In this document: positions 48,703 through 54,850 of the stretch, piece by piece
How positions within the stretch are numbered: the stretch's first letter is position 1
Layout: every line of letters begins with the position of its first letter
From: a virus
Reading direction: 5' to 3' (one strand)
Length of the DNA: 55,111 nucleotides
Virus record (IMG/VR): IMGVR_UViG_3300033153_005557
Location: 1-55,111 of that record
Position numbers and translations under genes: made by a program
The notes under the pieces: model-generated
Told to the model about the DNA's origin: nothing
Database searches by the model: none
What the model saw: the letters and a program-made list of their open reading frames with translations, nothing else

Positions 48703-49178
48703 AGACACGGTTTCCTTTTACAGTCATACATTGTATTAAACTTATTGAAGAAAATCAACTCACAAGCGTTAAGAAACTCCATATACGCCTCCGGGGTCAA
48801 CGCCTCGGTTGATATAACGTGATATCCGTCTACCGTACCCAATATTGTCCGCTTCAGGTCTTCTTTGACCTCTGCGAGTGTATAATACGGCTTTGACTCA
48901 CCAGACGCGGCTTCATTTAACGCCTTCTGGAACGCGGGAACAATGACGCCATGAAAGAAATTACGCATTGGCTCTCTGTCCCAGTCGATAATTTCGATGA
49001 AATTAACGGCAACATGCTTGATTCCGTCTTCTTTCATCTCTTTTATCAACTCGGTAAAATCAACTCCGGGAAAGATATCCGCCTTCTGTGCGGCATCCGG
49101 CGAGAACTCTGTGAAGAATTCCCACCGCCGTGCACGTATTTTACCGCCACTGTCGTTATCTGTGGTTTTACTAGTCAT
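48699..49178 (-). CDS. NinB-like or recombination-associated protein candidate, 159 aa
   Basis: The pattern EPMRNFFHGVIVPAFQKALN, YYTLAEVKEDLKRTILGTVD, STEALTPEAYMEFLNACELI resembles proteins near phage recombination genes, some annotated NinB-like or related to lambda Orf; no catalytic motif is obvious. Cys-containing C-terminus (YDCKRKPCL). It lies directly after the conjugation cassette and is coupled to the 129-aa gene by an eight-base overlap. Confidence 0.5.
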   Translation of the reverse strand: MTSKTTDNDSGGKIRARRWEFFTEFSPDAAQKADIFPGVDFTELIKEMKEDGIKHVAVNFIEIIDWDREPMRNFFHGVIVPAFQKALNEAASGESKPYYTLAEVKEDLKRTILGTVDGYHVISTEALTPEAYMEFLNACELIFFNKFNTMYDCKRKPCL

Positions 49179-49560
49179 CGTCTTCCTCTGGCTTTAGCAC
49201 CAAAGTCTCCACATACGTCTCTCGCAGGTCTTTTAATGCTTCCGGCATCTTTATGTTACCTTCAATATAAAGGTCACTGACGGCAGCGACAAGCGTTGCT
49301 ACGGCCTTCTGGTCGATTGGTGTAAACTCACGTGCTGCTGAAGCTCTTCTCCGAAGCCATTTTATACCAAGCTCAAGCGTAATGCTCATGAGATTGGCGA
49401 GAACAACCTTGTTGCCACACAACGTGCTTACGATTACCAGGGCCTGGTCCTTTGTGATCGAGCCATCCTCGATGATTTCTTTATTTGCTTCTGCCCAGCC
49501 CCATATTTGTACTCTGTTTGCCAATGATAATCTATTCTGTCCGTGTTTCGTCTTCTCCAT
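49171..49560 (-). CDS. Hypothetical helical protein, 129 aa, downstream of E1
   Basis: Predicted almost entirely helical: RLSLANRVQIWGWAEANKEI, QALVIVSTLCGNKVVLANLM, QKAVATLVAAVSDLYIEGNI. Ends in acidic LKPEEDDD. It overlaps the E1 gene by 29 bases and may be translated with it, so it could be an adapter or target of the cascade. No family recognised. Confidence 0.6.
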   Translation of the reverse strand: MEKTKHGQNRLSLANRVQIWGWAEANKEIIEDGSITKDQALVIVSTLCGNKVVLANLMSITLELGIKWLRRRASAAREFTPIDQKAVATLVAAVSDLYIEGNIKMPEALKDLRETYVETLVLKPEEDDD

Positions 49561-50263
49561 CTGCTTGTGCCCTTTCGTCTATTTCTATTGGTATAATATC
49601 TGTAACGACCATCTCGTTTGCCAGCAGATTTAACTGTATATCTGCGTCAACCGGATAGTCCCGTAAAAACTTGGTGAACTGGCTTACCATTATCCCCGCA
49701 GCCACATTAGCACAGTATATCGTGCTACGTGCGGTACAAGAGCCTTGATAAGCCTCTTCTGGTGTAAACAACGTTGTTGGGTAATATTTTCTACTATCAT
49801 AGTCCGATGCTGTAATGACTCGCAGCGTCTCTGCTGACATACGTCCGTCAACAAAGAACTCCGTTTTTGCTTGTACCGCGTCCCATATCTCTTTCCGAGT
49901 AGATATTGAGTCTACGCAACAAAAGACACATGAATGTATCTGTTCGTTTGAGGTAAACCTAGACTCATACGTAGCAACCATTATAGATTTGTTTATCGTT
50001 TGGCACCGGTATTTTACTGAATCCACCTTGTAACGGCCAATATCGTCTTCTTCGAATCCCTGTGTCACACAATTAACCTCTTCTATTTTGTCATGATCGA
50101 AGAGTTGTATCTCCGGAACACCGATAGAAGCCAACATTAATGCTACCTGGCGGCCAATCGCACCAACACCGATTACGGTCACCTTTGAAGCAAGAATACG
50201 GTCACGAGGTACAACATCGTTTTGTCGAGAATATCGGTCTTCAGTTGTATCTTCAATATCCAT
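49532..50263 (-). CDS. E1/ThiF-like ubiquitin-type activating enzyme, 243 aa
   Basis: Contains the family signposts: RYSRQNDVVP at the start (residues 10-19, like RYSRQ of MoeB/ThiF/E1), the nucleotide loop VTVIGVGAIGRQVALML (28-44), LFDHDKIEEVNCVTQGF (54-70) with the adenylate-binding Asp, and CVDSISTRKEIWDAV. CTARSTIYCAN offers candidate catalytic or metal Cys residues. E1-like enzymes adenylate the C-terminus of a beta-grasp protein. Here the neighbours are a JAMM protease, an E2-RING fusion and a beta-grasp protein, so activation of that modifier is the likely role. Confidence 0.85.
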   Translation of the reverse strand: MDIEDTTEDRYSRQNDVVPRDRILASKVTVIGVGAIGRQVALMLASIGVPEIQLFDHDKIEEVNCVTQGFEEDDIGRYKVDSVKYRCQTINKSIMVATYESRFTSNEQIHSCVFCCVDSISTRKEIWDAVQAKTEFFVDGRMSAETLRVITASDYDSRKYYPTTLFTPEEAYQGSCTARSTIYCANVAAGIMVSQFTKFLRDYPVDADIQLNLLANEMVVTDIIPIEIDERAQADGEDETRTE

Positions 50264-50957
50264 ATTTTCTTACCCTTTCTTCATATGTCAGCTTGTTATA
50301 ATCATCCCAGTATGCATCTTCTTCTGAGATAATCACCTCACTGCCGTCAAGAACGTTACCGCTTATGGCCTTCTGTTTACGACGTTCTTCATCTTTTATT
50401 GCCTGCTGCTGATGCCACGAAAGGTTTGTACGAACATATACAAGAGCTACTTCCGTTTTCTCATCGTATTCCTCTTTCCAGGCGGCAAAGTCGGTTGCAT
50501 TAAACGGAACCGAGTAATCTACGACAACGGGTAACTTAATTGTTCCACCCGGTCCAGCACTGAATCTTAACCGGCAATATACTTCTTCATCTGAAGAGAC
50601 AATACACATAATGGACCAGTCACAAGAACTAAATACCCGTTCAAACGTTTCTTCGTCTATAAAGCTTGGTAATGCCGACATACCCGGATGCGTATGAACC
50701 CAGATACGAGCAAATTGTGACGGATGCAAACCCGCTTCTACCATATCTTCAAAATAATCCGCGACACCCTCGTCATCAAAATCCACCGAAGCCGTACTTA
50801 CTTCCTGTTTTACAAGTTTTATGTCTTCTATCAACAACAAGTCATCCTTGTTGCTGATACCAAACGCACCTACCTCATTTTTTGTCAAATCTCGCAAGTA
50901 AACAAGCTTTGCCCATGCCGTAGGTGTAAACTTTAACTCTATGATCTTTTTTAACAT
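50253..50957 (-). CDS. JAMM/MPN metalloprotease (deubiquitinase-like), 234 aa
   Basis: The full JAMM motif is visible: Glu28 (KNEVGAFG), then HTHPGMSALPSFID at 88-101, which fits H-x-H-x7-S-x2-D exactly. The fold start is typical (FTPTAWAKLVYL). A C-terminal extension (SWHQQQAIKDEERRKQKAIS onward) is helical and charged. JAMM proteases cut isopeptide bonds or trim modifier C-termini. Lying between E2 and E1 genes, with TAATG overlap to E2, it would mature the modifier (ending DGASR) or reverse conjugation. Start follows GAAAGGAGTAGTTA. Confidence 0.9.
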   Translation of the reverse strand: MLKKIIELKFTPTAWAKLVYLRDLTKNEVGAFGISNKDDLLLIEDIKLVKQEVSTASVDFDDEGVADYFEDMVEAGLHPSQFARIWVHTHPGMSALPSFIDEETFERVFSSCDWSIMCIVSSDEEVYCRLRFSAGPGGTIKLPVVVDYSVPFNATDFAAWKEEYDEKTEVALVYVRTNLSWHQQQAIKDEERRKQKAISGNVLDGSEVIISEEDAYWDDYNKLTYEERVRKYGY

Positions 50958-52111
50958 TAACTACTCCTTTCATCTACAACCCTACCGGTTGTAACAGGTG
51001 TCGAAGCAAACCCTACGGACACCGGTGTGGCATTTTCTCGTTGCGATTGACACCTACCACAGCTACAACCGGCTTCTGCTCCACCAACGGCGGGATACTT
51101 TATTGCTTTTTCGTCTCTTGTTTTACAACTCTTACATACACCGTCTTCGATGTGTTTTGGGCAAAAATAATATGAACAACGGTTACACTTAAGCTTCGGT
51201 GAACACTCCACACAGACTACGTTAGAGCAAACATAACAAGTTCTAATACAAGCTGTACAAAAAGATTTTCCACAGACAAAACACTTGTCGTCGCATTTAG
51301 GACAGACATTACTGCCACACTTTGAGCATTCTTTTACATTATAATCACCATCATTAAAGAAATACTCACACCGTGGACACCTAGTATGCGTCCATTCTTC
51401 TATCTGTACATACGGGTCTTGTTCGTTGTATGTACGTAACCACTGGCAAAGAACGGTAAATAAATCATATATTCTACCGTCTTTTGCCGCATTGTTTATC
51501 AGTGTTGCCGCCTCACCAAGGCATATATCTTCTGGAGACACATGTGGATGTGTATAATGACTTCCACTTTGTGGGTTAACAGGTTCTTTCGCCTGTACCC
51601 ATACAACGTCAGACGCACAATAGTTCCTTCCAAACCGAGAAGTATCAACGCTCATCTCGAATGGGCCGAGATTTACGCCACATAATACAATCGGTTCTGT
51701 GGTGAAACATACACGACTGCTATCAGCACGAAAAGTACCAGGAAACTCTTTATCCAAGGCACAAAAGTCCTCGAATATTTCCGAGGCACTTATTTTTACC
51801 TCAAGAGTGCAATTGGAATACTGCTCTAAAGCACCCAAAGCTCTATATATTGTTTGCTGGTAAGTAGTTATTTCCTGGCGAGAATTTCGTCTATCATTTT
51901 CACCAAGAGAAACATACGCAGCCAAATGCTTCGCAAACGCATCTAACGCGAAAACCGTATCTGCAAAATATCTATTGAAATGCTCTTTATGAACTATTGC
52001 CTGTGCACCGGCCGAAGCGAATATTTTATTTGTCATACACGCAAAAATGTAATATTTATCAAAGACCGGACTATCTAATGCAATCTGGTCTATTCTGAGT
52101 AATGTTGCCAC
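50957..52111 (-). CDS. E2-like conjugating domain fused to a RING-like multi-zinc domain, 384 aa (GTG start)
   Basis: Residues 1-100 are helical. About 135-236 have E2 layout: strands with LGPFEMSVDTSRF and VVWVQAKEPVNP, then HYTHPHVSPEDICLGEAATL, where HPH (188-190) precedes Cys197 as HPN precedes the catalytic Cys (HPN..ICL) in UBC folds, and YDLFTVLCQWLRTYNEQDPY resembles the following E2 helix. Residues 245-329 hold many C-x2-C pairs (TRCPRCEYFF, CSKCGSNVCPKCDDKC, CFVCGKSFCTAC, CYVCSNVVCVEC), a RING- or treble-clef-like array. The chain thus looks like an E2 with a built-in E3. GTG start follows AAGGAGATTTACG. Confidence 0.75.
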   Translation of the reverse strand: MATLLRIDQIALDSPVFDKYYIFACMTNKIFASAGAQAIVHKEHFNRYFADTVFALDAFAKHLAAYVSLGENDRRNSRQEITTYQQTIYRALGALEQYSNCTLEVKISASEIFEDFCALDKEFPGTFRADSSRVCFTTEPIVLCGVNLGPFEMSVDTSRFGRNYCASDVVWVQAKEPVNPQSGSHYTHPHVSPEDICLGEAATLINNAAKDGRIYDLFTVLCQWLRTYNEQDPYVQIEEWTHTRCPRCEYFFNDGDYNVKECSKCGSNVCPKCDDKCFVCGKSFCTACIRTCYVCSNVVCVECSPKLKCNRCSYYFCPKHIEDGVCKSCKTRDEKAIKYPAVGGAEAGCSCGRCQSQRENATPVSVGFASTPVTTGRVVDERSS

Positions 52112-52148
52112 CGTAAATCTCCTTCATTGTTTAACATAAACAATAGAT

Positions 52149-52177
52149 GTGAGGCATGGCATACAGCCATACCCCAC
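52149..52177 (-). other. Hairpin between modifier and E2 genes
   Basis: Minus strand GTGGGGTATGGC pairs with GCCATGCCTCAC (two G-U pairs) around a five-base loop. No T-run. A stem here could let the small modifier be made in excess over the enzymes by processing or attenuation. Confidence 0.55.
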
Positions 52178-52191
52178 ATAACACGTTGCTG

Positions 52192-52422
52192 TTAACGACT
52201 TGCACCATCAATTTTTGTTGGTGTGATAGCGATACGGTCGTTTGCGACTAGTACCTGGTCACGAGACGTCTGCTGGCGGTTAACCCGAATCATGAAATTT
52301 TCCGGTTCTCTGCCAGGCATTTTTTCCTTGAAAAACGCGTCTACCGTTATTCCGCTTGCGATATTCAGTGTGTCGCAATATCCGCCACCATCGTTGTTAA
52401 TGTACGTGATCTGAATACTCAT
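52192..52422 (-). CDS. Beta-grasp ubiquitin-like modifier candidate, 76 aa
   Basis: The length equals that of ubiquitin, and the order of strands fits a ThiS/MoaD/ubiquitin beta-grasp: SIQITYINNDGGGYCDTLNI, helix with VDAFFKEKMPG, strand NFMIRVNRQQ, a QVLVANDRIAITPTK end. The tail is KIDGASR, not Gly-Gly. If the JAMM protease trims ASR, a C-terminal Gly would be exposed for E1. The start follows AAGGGAAAGTAGC. Hairpins flank the gene on both sides. Confidence 0.7.
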   Translation of the reverse strand: MSIQITYINNDGGGYCDTLNIASGITVDAFFKEKMPGREPENFMIRVNRQQTSRDQVLVANDRIAITPTKIDGASR

Positions 52423-53343: not shown

Positions 53344-53637
53344 CTATGATATTTCTGTTACAGCTACTACTTCATCTTCTCCACGAAGACGAATAGCTCT
53401 TACGCCCTGGCAATTACGTCCGGTTTCACGGATATGACCTACCTTAACCCGAACACTATAACCACGCTTTGTTACAATTAGCATATCTCTGCTTTCACAG
53501 GGATTAATCGCGGCCACTACGTCTCCGTTTCTGTCTGACGTTCTGACAGCCATGACACCTACACGGCTAAGACGCATGGTAGGGAAATTGTACGCAGGTG
53601 TACGTACTATATACCCGTTTTTAGTTACAAAAATCAT
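53344..53637 (-). CDS. Stand-alone GyrA C-terminal-domain-like protein, 97 aa
   Basis: The chain repeats the beta-pinwheel blade pattern of gyrase/topoisomerase IV subunit A. Blade one is MIFVTKNGYIVRTPAYNFPT with GVMAVRTSDRNGDVVAAI. Blade two is DMLIVTKRGYSVRVKVGHIR with GRNCQGVRAIRLRGEDEVVA. A full GyrA C-terminal domain has six blades and a GyrA-box; here only about two blades exist and no breakage-reunion domain. It might bind DNA, interfere with host gyrase or recruit it. Confidence 0.75.
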   Translation of the reverse strand: MIFVTKNGYIVRTPAYNFPTMRLSRVGVMAVRTSDRNGDVVAAINPCESRDMLIVTKRGYSVRVKVGHIRETGRNCQGVRAIRLRGEDEVVAVTEIS

Positions 53638-53998: not shown

Positions 53999-54850
53999 CT
54001 ATACTGGGCGATACCCAGCTTGCTGTGCGTACGGGCATACGGATACAACTTGGCAATAATACTTGCACTTAATATCTTCCGCACGACGGTTAATGGCGGC
54101 TTTCGACTGTGCCGCCGGTTTCATTTGATTAAAATACGTTAACGCGTCCGCATAATTGTCTGTAACTCGCAGAGCTCGCTTACGGTCGCGACGTTCCACG
54201 GCAAACTTAACAGACCCAAAGTTCCGTTCTTCCATTGTACACGGTCTCTCTGGCTGTGCTGTGTGATCTATGATACGGTTAGCAATAAAGGCGAATACTT
54301 CATTTCGTAGCTTTACAGCTACCTCACGCGTTTGCATCATACACTGTGGCTTTGTGTGGTCACGAGCGGCACCAATAGTGGTAAAATCCTTAAGAAACAT
54401 CCGTACAAATAGCTTAAAATGGTCTTCCGGCACCATTGCACCAAGTAAAATCCGATAGATATTCAACTGCCATTGGTAATCTGTTTTTACCGGGTAGTTC
54501 ATATGGCTTATCATGCCGGTCTTGTTATCCTTGATATGCGTCATATTGGGGTCAATAAGTAAAGTTTCGTCTATTGTACCGAATATATTGCACTCCGGAA
54601 CACCGTTATCTTCCGCGATACAGATATTAACTCTTTGCTCATACGCAACAGTGCTTGTTGTCTCGCCCTCACACAGCTTGTGGAAGGCAGTACCAAACAT
54701 CATCGGTAAATAGAAGCTACAGTCAATAATTAGCTCGTCGCTGTCTCTGTGCCTCGCAAACAATGTTTTCGGCAACGGTGCACCGATTAGCTCCGTTACA
54801 CGGAAGTTTATATCACCGGTGTCTTGGTCGTCTTCATACGGATTATGCAT
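53999..54850 (-). CDS. Cas4/RecB-like PD-(D/E)XK exonuclease, 283 aa
   Basis: MMFGTAFHKLCEGE (G..H motif I) is followed by FGTIDETLLIDPN with the catalytic Asp, THIKDNKTG (D-x-K) and YQWQLNIYRILL (Q-x3-Y), the order of Cas4/AddB nucleases. A C-terminal CKYYCQVVSVCPYA offers three Cys of a probable 4Fe-4S site; the fourth may be Cys in LCEGE. Such exonucleases act in recombination or host DNA breakdown. The ATG lacks a ribosome site; an in-frame ATT at 54911-54913 sits nine bases after AAAGG and could be the true start. Confidence 0.8.
   Translation of the reverse strand: MHNPYEDDQDTGDINFRVTELIGAPLPKTLFARHRDSDELIIDCSFYLPMMFGTAFHKLCEGETTSTVAYEQRVNICIAEDNGVPECNIFGTIDETLLIDPNMTHIKDNKTGMISHMNYPVKTDYQWQLNIYRILLGAMVPEDHFKLFVRMFLKDFTTIGAARDHTKPQCMMQTREVAVKLRNEVFAFIANRIIDHTAQPERPCTMEERNFGSVKFAVERRDRKRALRVTDNYADALTYFNQMKPAAQSKAAINRRAEDIKCKYYCQVVSVCPYAQQAGYRPV

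Follow-up and report, generated by a model that had tools for sequence, protein, structure and literature searches.

Known ubiquitin-like systems and the phage cassette

Bacterial operons combining E1, E2, JAB and ubiquitin-like (Ubl) genes were described by Iyer et al. (2006), together with phage Ubl and JAB genes lying in the tail clusters of lambdoid bacteriophages (PMC1779556). The ubiquitin operon of the archaeon Caldiarchaeum subterraneum encodes ubiquitin, E1, E2, a RING-type protein and an Rpn11 JAMM protease, which was experimentally shown to mature the pro-ubiquitin (PMC5654768). Here we studied the viral contig IMGVR_UViG_3300033153_005557, whose whole stretch of 55,111 bases was analysed (hereafter the window). 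Four co-directional genes at positions 49532-52422 of its minus strand, in the order Ubl, E2, JAMM and E1, constitute a real, widespread and probably working Ubl-conjugation cassette, as judged from their sequences. We estimate at about 0.75 the probability that they encode a self-contained conjugation pathway of a tailed phage acting on DNA-metabolism proteins, a target suggested by the gene context. The phage origin of the record is sound because it carries terminase, portal, major head protein, RusA and DnaB/RecA-like ATPase genes, and the carrier of the cassette is a tailed phage.

An earlier note, made from the letters of the window without database searches, had proposed a complete cassette at this place. 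Its four open reading frames (ORFs) were found on the minus strand at the positions that it gave, RYSRQ, GVGAIG, HTHPGMSALPSFID and HPHVSPEDICLG all occur in the cassette proteins, and its numbering of C197 in the E2 and of H88 and H90 in the JAMM protein is correct. For the modifier, E1, E2 and JAMM, homology, a predicted structure or invariant residues of the active site likewise support the identity proposed. Pfam applied to the window proteins alone names only the E1, and the other identities were settled via relatives. Chance ORFs were rejected, given the Pfam match of the E1 to ThiF (2e-27), the recurrence of the gene order in many independent genomes and the matched distances between the proteins. 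The E2 and JAMM genes overlap by 1 base and the JAMM and E1 genes by 11 bases, and a gap of 80 bases, with a hairpin inside, separates the Ubl gene from the E2 gene. The GTG start of the latter is supported by the Shine-Dalgarno sequence AAGGAG ahead of it.

Relatives were collected with alignment-based scans, single-sequence scans being insufficient: those with the E1 or the E2 gave no matches in viral contigs, tblastn detected E2 relatives in neither phage nor plasmid records, and no relative of the JAMM protein was found in phages. The scan of IMG/VR with the E1 alignment yielded 116 relatives and that of genome contigs 153; 80 were kept from each, and the identities reported below refer to those kept.

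The nearest E1 sequences are cellular and belong to Planctomycetota (58-60% identical). The operons of these bacteria, for which no published name was found in the open-access literature, share with the window the four genes and their order, an E2 tail with about 21 Cys, a GA-tailed Ubl and the hairpin after the Ubl gene. Unlike the phage record, the cellular copies are often accompanied, in a larger module, by genes of a Cdc48-like AAA+ ATPase, a DUF1257-like protein, a helix-turn-helix (HTH) regulator and others. The set of crAss-like and Flavobacterium phages, annotated solely as ThiF, metalloprotease or hypothetical, agrees with that of the window in gene order, in E1 and JAMM homology, in the His..Cys of the E2 and in the K-I-x-S-G of the Ubl. 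It differs in that a separate long C-terminal domain comes after an invariant Ser-Gly in its Ubl, and its E2 has an HSH..C motif with longer spacing and no Cys-rich tail. The C. subterraneum operon, whose JAMM is the closest of known structure and whose ubiquitin is among the closest Ubl structures, is archaeal and has a separate small RING gene and a Gly-Gly modifier. The lambdoid TAPI/TAPK genes are also phage Ubl and JAB genes; unlike the cassette, they lie in a tail gene cluster with no E1 or E2 (PMC1779556).

Membership of the bacterial systems with similar gene content was considered as well. Bil (BilABCD) also comprises Ubl, E2, JAB and E1 genes, and its E1, BilD, consists of an inactive and an active adenylation domain. 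The E1 of the window has 243 amino acids with one ThiF domain and matches BilD only partially (26.5 bits), and membership of Bil was rejected. Bub is likewise a Ubl-conjugation set, and the ThiF domain of BubCD (9ea5) is matched by the E1 profile; the BubCD chain has 458 amino acids, of which region 183-293 is matched, whereas the E1 and E2 of the window are separate small proteins. PRTRC systems are carried on mobile DNA and include genes for ThiF, JAB, Ubl and an E2-like protein. The PRTRC_ThiF model gave 39.2 bits against a cut-off of 144.75 and no other PRTRC A-F model hit the cassette or the neighbours scanned, so PRTRC was rejected. Type II CBASS (Cap2/Cap3), in which a fused E1-E2 protein accompanies a CD-NTase, was discarded too: E1 and E2 of the window are separate, Cap3 scored 14 bits against 200, and no CD-NTase was found among the window proteins scanned.

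E1 enzyme and Ubl modifier

The E1 of the window matches the Pfam family ThiF (PF00899) with an E-value of 2.4e-27 and 96 bits, the cut-off being 28. In its family (n=18), R13, the glycine loop, D56, D58, K79, D118, C176 and T177 are invariant. The best solved matches of the family profile were UBA5, MccB, UBA1, ThiF and MoeB, with scores all near each other. A Cys-Thr pair in the absence of a zinc-binding CxxC pair marks E1s that tag proteins, while ThiF and MoeB bind zinc. By pattern match, Cys-Thr or Cys-Ser was found in nearly all of 158 E1s and at least two CxxC motifs in none of them (0/158). With its Cys-Thr and no CxxC pair, the E1 of the window would by sequence be of the protein-conjugating type and not a sulfur-carrier ThiF/MoeB.

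The AlphaFold2 model of the Ubl is a confident beta-grasp, with a predicted local distance difference test (pLDDT) of 91, and thus shows the fold that had been proposed for this protein. Foldseek matched the model with MoaD, Caldiarchaeum ubiquitin, SUMO and ubiquitin, MoaD being the best by E-value. Gly73 is invariant among 16 aligned Ubls, and the protein is by this model a ubiquitin-like beta-grasp modifier with a C-terminal Gly. It ends in KIDG/ASR. The KI(D/E)GA stretch is kept in phage and cellular Ubls and is then mostly followed by short unrelated tails, a pattern which would be that of a precursor cut after the Gly. At two loci (L015 3381-4118 and L017 3381-4118) the Ubl protein has 245 amino acids and three tandem Ubl-like units, with the KGA end only in the last.

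The proximity of the Ubl model to MoaD, the ThiF-like Pfam match of the E1 and the many records in which this E1 is labelled as a thiamine biosynthesis protein would agree with a sulfur-carrier system of the ThiS/MoaD type, serving a modified nucleoside or a cofactor. We regard this as very improbable, since the cassette includes an E2 with a conserved Cys and a JAMM protein, the Ubl tail needs removal, the E1 has Cys-Thr and no paired CxxC zinc site, and no rhodanese or sulfurtransferase was detected among the neighbours scanned. A role as sulfur carrier only was rejected on the E2, the JAMM protein, the Ubl tail and the Cys-Thr of the E1.

JAMM protease

The JAMM protein of the window matched Pfam Prok-JAB weakly, under the cut-off. 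The profile of 17 members matches Caldiarchaeum Rpn11 with an E-value of 1.2e-5, and the metal ligands (E28, H88, H90 and the S98 and D101 motif) are invariant in all 17. The motif is kept in 69/69 cellular, 20/20 phage-clade and 51/57 crAss-like proteins. On the pattern E-x(n)-H-x-H-x7-S-x2-D, the protein is assigned by sequence to the JAMM/MPN+ family. A search of the PDB with the crAss-like JAMM profile found no JAMM.

In some crAss-like phages the JAMM gene is broken at the active-site HxH (L032 5862-7040, L067 5472-6656 and L053 6121-6413, and also L046, L051 and L069). Rfam identified group I introns in the JAMM genes of L032, L067 and L053; the inserts of L046, L051 and L069 lie at about the same position and gave no Rfam match.

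E2 and its Cys-rich tail

The E2 of the window had no Pfam match alone. In 16 phage E2s H188, P189, C197, G199 and W240 are invariant, and the His-Pro, Cys, Gly and Trp remain so in a 47-member alignment of phage and cellular E2 segments, one member of which (1/47) matched UQ_con (8e-4). When the E2 profile was compared by hhalign with four yeast UBCs, HPH..C was placed on HPN..C with an E-value of 4.6e-5 and a probability of 68. The AlphaFold2 model had a pLDDT of 76, and its top Foldseek match was a Leishmania UBC (probability 0.82, E-value 0.04). The yeast UBC alignment and this weak top match agree with the UBC fold that had been predicted around Cys197; the UBC identity is likely, with moderate support for the fold.

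The earlier note had also seen a RING-like, E3-type module fused to the E2. A Cys-rich tail does exist; it contains 22 Cys and 10 CxxC, spaced as CxxC-x4-CxxC-x3. It is a tandem array rather than a canonical C3HC4 RING and is absent from crAss-like E2s. The number of CxxC varies from 4 to 21 in the tails of relatives, and the similarity to RING and treble-clef zinc fingers is weak, possibly a bias of cysteine composition. A canonical RING was rejected, as the tandem units of variable number do not have the C3HC4/C3H2C3 cross-brace spacing. The E3 function is unproven, because the array is no canonical RING and the crAss-like E2s are without the tail; it may act in cis like a ligase or bind targets.

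Hairpin after the modifier gene and other features

The features identified in this region are collected in Table 1. The hairpin which follows the Ubl gene of the window has no strong U-run. In a survey of relatives with mononucleotide shuffles, a hairpin with z<-2 was present after the Ubl gene in 46/56 loci (9/11 phage and 37/45 cellular), compared with controls of 24/157 after other genes, 4/56 after JAMM and 8/56 before Ubl. After the E1 gene the frequency was 27/56, as expected at the end of an operon. From these sequences, the hairpin is probably an attenuator or a processing site that would hold the modifier in excess. Sigma-70-like promoters were no commoner than expected by chance.

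Table 1. Features of the cassette and its flanks in the window
Feature	Position	Strand	Evidence
Ubl modifier, 76 amino acids, beta-grasp, single C-terminal Gly73 and 3-residue tail Ala-Ser-Arg	52192..52422	-	AlphaFold2, Foldseek, alignment of 16
Predicted JAMM maturation site, codons Gly73/Ala74	52201..52206	-	Inferred from KI(D/E)GA conservation in phage and cellular Ubls
14-bp attenuator-like hairpin separating the modifier gene from those of the enzymes	52147..52179	-	z -4.45, dinucleotide shuffles
Shine-Dalgarno AAGGAG of the E2 gene	52119..52124	-	Sequence
E2-like protein, 384 amino acids: N-terminal helices, UBC-like core (about residues 100-242), Cys-rich C-terminal domain	50957..52111	-	
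E2 active-site stretch H188-P-H-V-S-P-E-D-I-C197	51521..51550	-	Invariant residues in relatives
Tandem CxxC zinc-knuckle-like array, putative E3-like or target-binding module	51041..51379	-	
JAMM/JAB protease, 234 amino acids, E28, H88-x-H90-x7-S98-x2-D101	50253..50957	-	
E1/ThiF-type activating enzyme, 243 amino acids, single adenylation domain, Cys176-Thr177 predicted catalytic	49532..50263	-	
Co-directional ORF of 129 amino acids, sharing 29 bases with the E1 gene	49171..49560	-	
Exonuclease, recombination-gene context, upstream of the cassette	53999..54850	-	phrog_2139, 5.5e-17

The 129-amino-acid ORF had no relative in the loci fetched. Elsewhere in the window, a 97-amino-acid ORF at 53344-53637 (-) is composed solely of blades of the GyrA C-terminal beta-propeller (PF03989, 1e-21) and represents a free fragment of this GyrA domain in a phage.

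Distribution and inheritance

Around 17 large-phage records, mostly with 41-58% E1 identity, have all or almost all of the four genes, arranged in the cassette order. Among the other 61 viral loci, which include crAss001 (L082) and Flavobacterium phages, E2, JAMM and E1 occur together in 58 and the Ubl in most. The cellular relatives, with E1 identities up to 60%, are nearly all Planctomycetota, and most intact cellular loci display the same Ubl-E2-JAB-E1 cassette. The pairwise distances of the four proteins agree over 69 loci (r 0.72-0.84, against a permutation maximum of 0.27) and, therefore, the cassette travels as a unit. In the E1 tree the window falls in a large-phage clade adjoining cellular sequences (SH-aLRT 82, weak), and gene exchange between hosts and phages, in one direction or the other, is likely from these sequences.

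Two cassettes come from records bearing the titles Heimdallarchaeota (L136, 4.94-Mb chromosome) and Thermoplasmata (L140, with three E2-like places in the genome); misbinning or a provirus may be involved, because their E1s group with those of phages. A second E1-like gene was present upstream of the cassette at L015 (2-661) and L022 (495-1193).

In an even sample of planctomycete genomes the E2 was found in 15/392, one genome having 6 copies. In this genome (G245, one 8.3-Mb contig) the cassette forms part of a larger module, present in six dispersed copies (L170-L175) and comprising an HTH regulator, a lipoprotein-like protein, a DUF1257-like protein, the AAA+ ATPase, small proteins and Ubl-E2-JAB-E1; this module is probably mobile or conflict-related. 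A conflict role is plausible because the cellular modules are sporadic and multi-copy, and genes of integrases, of restriction and of AbiEii/Fic lie in their neighbourhood. These data, the HTH regulator and AAA+ ATPase of the modules and the cellular origin of the nearest E1s would suit a counter-defence or competition role, in which a captured copy of the Ubl system of a planctomycete host diverts, saturates or reverses that of the host. The earlier note had suggested that a phage set inverts the defensive role; this covers only part of the picture, the nearest E1s being cellular. The planctomycete modules to which the nearest E1s belong are not known to have an antiphage role, however, and crAss-like phages of Bacteroidota hold the same four genes near-constantly, with no known homologous cassette in their hosts. 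Nor is the host of the window phage established, since a TerL search of Planctomycetota gave only distant matches (28-44% identical along part of the sequence) in 10/392 genomes. We consider counter-defence rather unlikely.

The multi-copy and patchy distribution in bacteria would also be compatible with cargo of a mobile module having no function in the phage cycle. This is scarcely credible, because the catalytic residues are essentially invariant and the cassette remains intact across phages down to about 20-30% identity. Group I introns tend to occupy conserved phage genes, and the fact that some crAss-like phages have them within the active-site motif of JAMM also argues against mere cargo.

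Genomic context and Cdc48-like ATPase

At L015 an SbcC-like gene precedes the cassette, and helicase, DnaB, primase and polymerase genes follow it. At L007 the cassette precedes exonuclease VIII, at L019 an RNA ligase gene comes after it, and in crAss-like phages it lies between the primase gene and those of uracil-DNA glycosylase, resolvase, exonuclease and ribonucleotide reductase. These neighbours, with those of the window, indicate that distant phage lineages keep the cassette with DNA metabolism. The earlier note had proposed tagging of host proteins or of phage tail or capsid proteins, or an action against host defence; a virion target fits the context less than a replication-linked one. 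Modification of tail or capsid proteins, as a control of assembly or host range, would have parallels in Bil, reported in a work cited in PMC12135933 to tag phage tails, and in the Ubl and JAB genes of lambdoid tail clusters (PMC1779556). We consider it quite improbable, given the replication and recombination genes beside the cassette and the more than 15 kb separating it from the terminase, portal and head genes in the window.

A homologue of the AAA+ ATPase of planctomycetes was identified in 10 close phage loci, about 2-7 kb from the cassette, and strongly matched in 11/17 close phage records. The best PDB match of the phage protein was Cdc48/p97 (2e-57), a group also matched by the planctomycete ATPase. 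A search of six crAss-like records did not detect the protein. In large phages (L010 11530-13104 and homologues) it is a single AAA+ ATPase of the Cdc48/p97 class with an N-terminal region of about 270 amino acids.

Proposed pathway

In the pathway that we propose, JAMM would cut the Ubl precursor after Gly73, and would later be able to strip the tag. The E1 would adenylate Gly73 and load the Ubl onto its Cys176, from which it would move to Cys197 of the E2 to be joined to lysines of the target, the zinc-rich tail guiding the target or the E2~Ubl. The hairpin probably lowers the expression of the enzymes, leaving the tag in excess, and the Cdc48/p97-class ATPase encoded nearby in most large relatives probably acts on the tagged proteins. 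The likeliest targets would be phage or host proteins of replication or recombination. The gene set, its order, the families, the conserved residues, the hairpin and the context are observed; the catalytic steps, the expression ratio, the AAA+ link and the target are what we infer from them.

Several points weigh against this reading. The window Ubl has a single Gly and not Gly-Gly, and the residue expected by the alignment to correspond to MoeB Arg73 is Gln68 in the window E1. All Foldseek E-values of the E2 were >0.001, and the profile of its UBC region found no UBC chain in the PDB. The AAA+ ATPase was found neither in the 55-kb record nor in its near relative L007. The E2 and Ubl of crAss-like phages are linked to those of the window mainly by position, motif and order, their profile scores being weak: the comparison of the crAss-like E2 with the yeast UBC profile failed (E-value 0.37), and that of the crAss-like Ubl profile with the close set gave 0.06, too weak for use. 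Finally, the target is deduced from the neighbourhood alone, and the steps are predictions from sequence.

Biological significance

Searches of the open-access PMC literature retrieved no description of the cassette in phages and none of a ThiF gene in crAss-like phages, which does not prove novelty. To our knowledge, bacterial ubiquitin-like systems have mostly been discussed as antiphage defence. Here the full set is viral and is kept in distant phage lineages, crAss-like ones included, near replication and recombination genes, and phages may therefore tag proteins for their own cycle. The system is accessible for testing, crAss001 being a cultured phage and planctomycete copies being present in named Rhodopirellula strains.

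The presence of a Cdc48-like ATPase nearby is relevant to the question of how ubiquitin and Cdc48 became partners. Tentatively, large phages and some planctomycetes could share a five-part pathway composed of the Ubl, the E1, the E2 with its ligase-like zinc-array tail, JAMM and a Cdc48/p97-class AAA+ ATPase pulling tagged proteins apart. The phages would use it to remodel replication or recombination complexes; it would be the counterpart of ubiquitin-Cdc48 in the bacterial world, and the window would hold its four-gene core.

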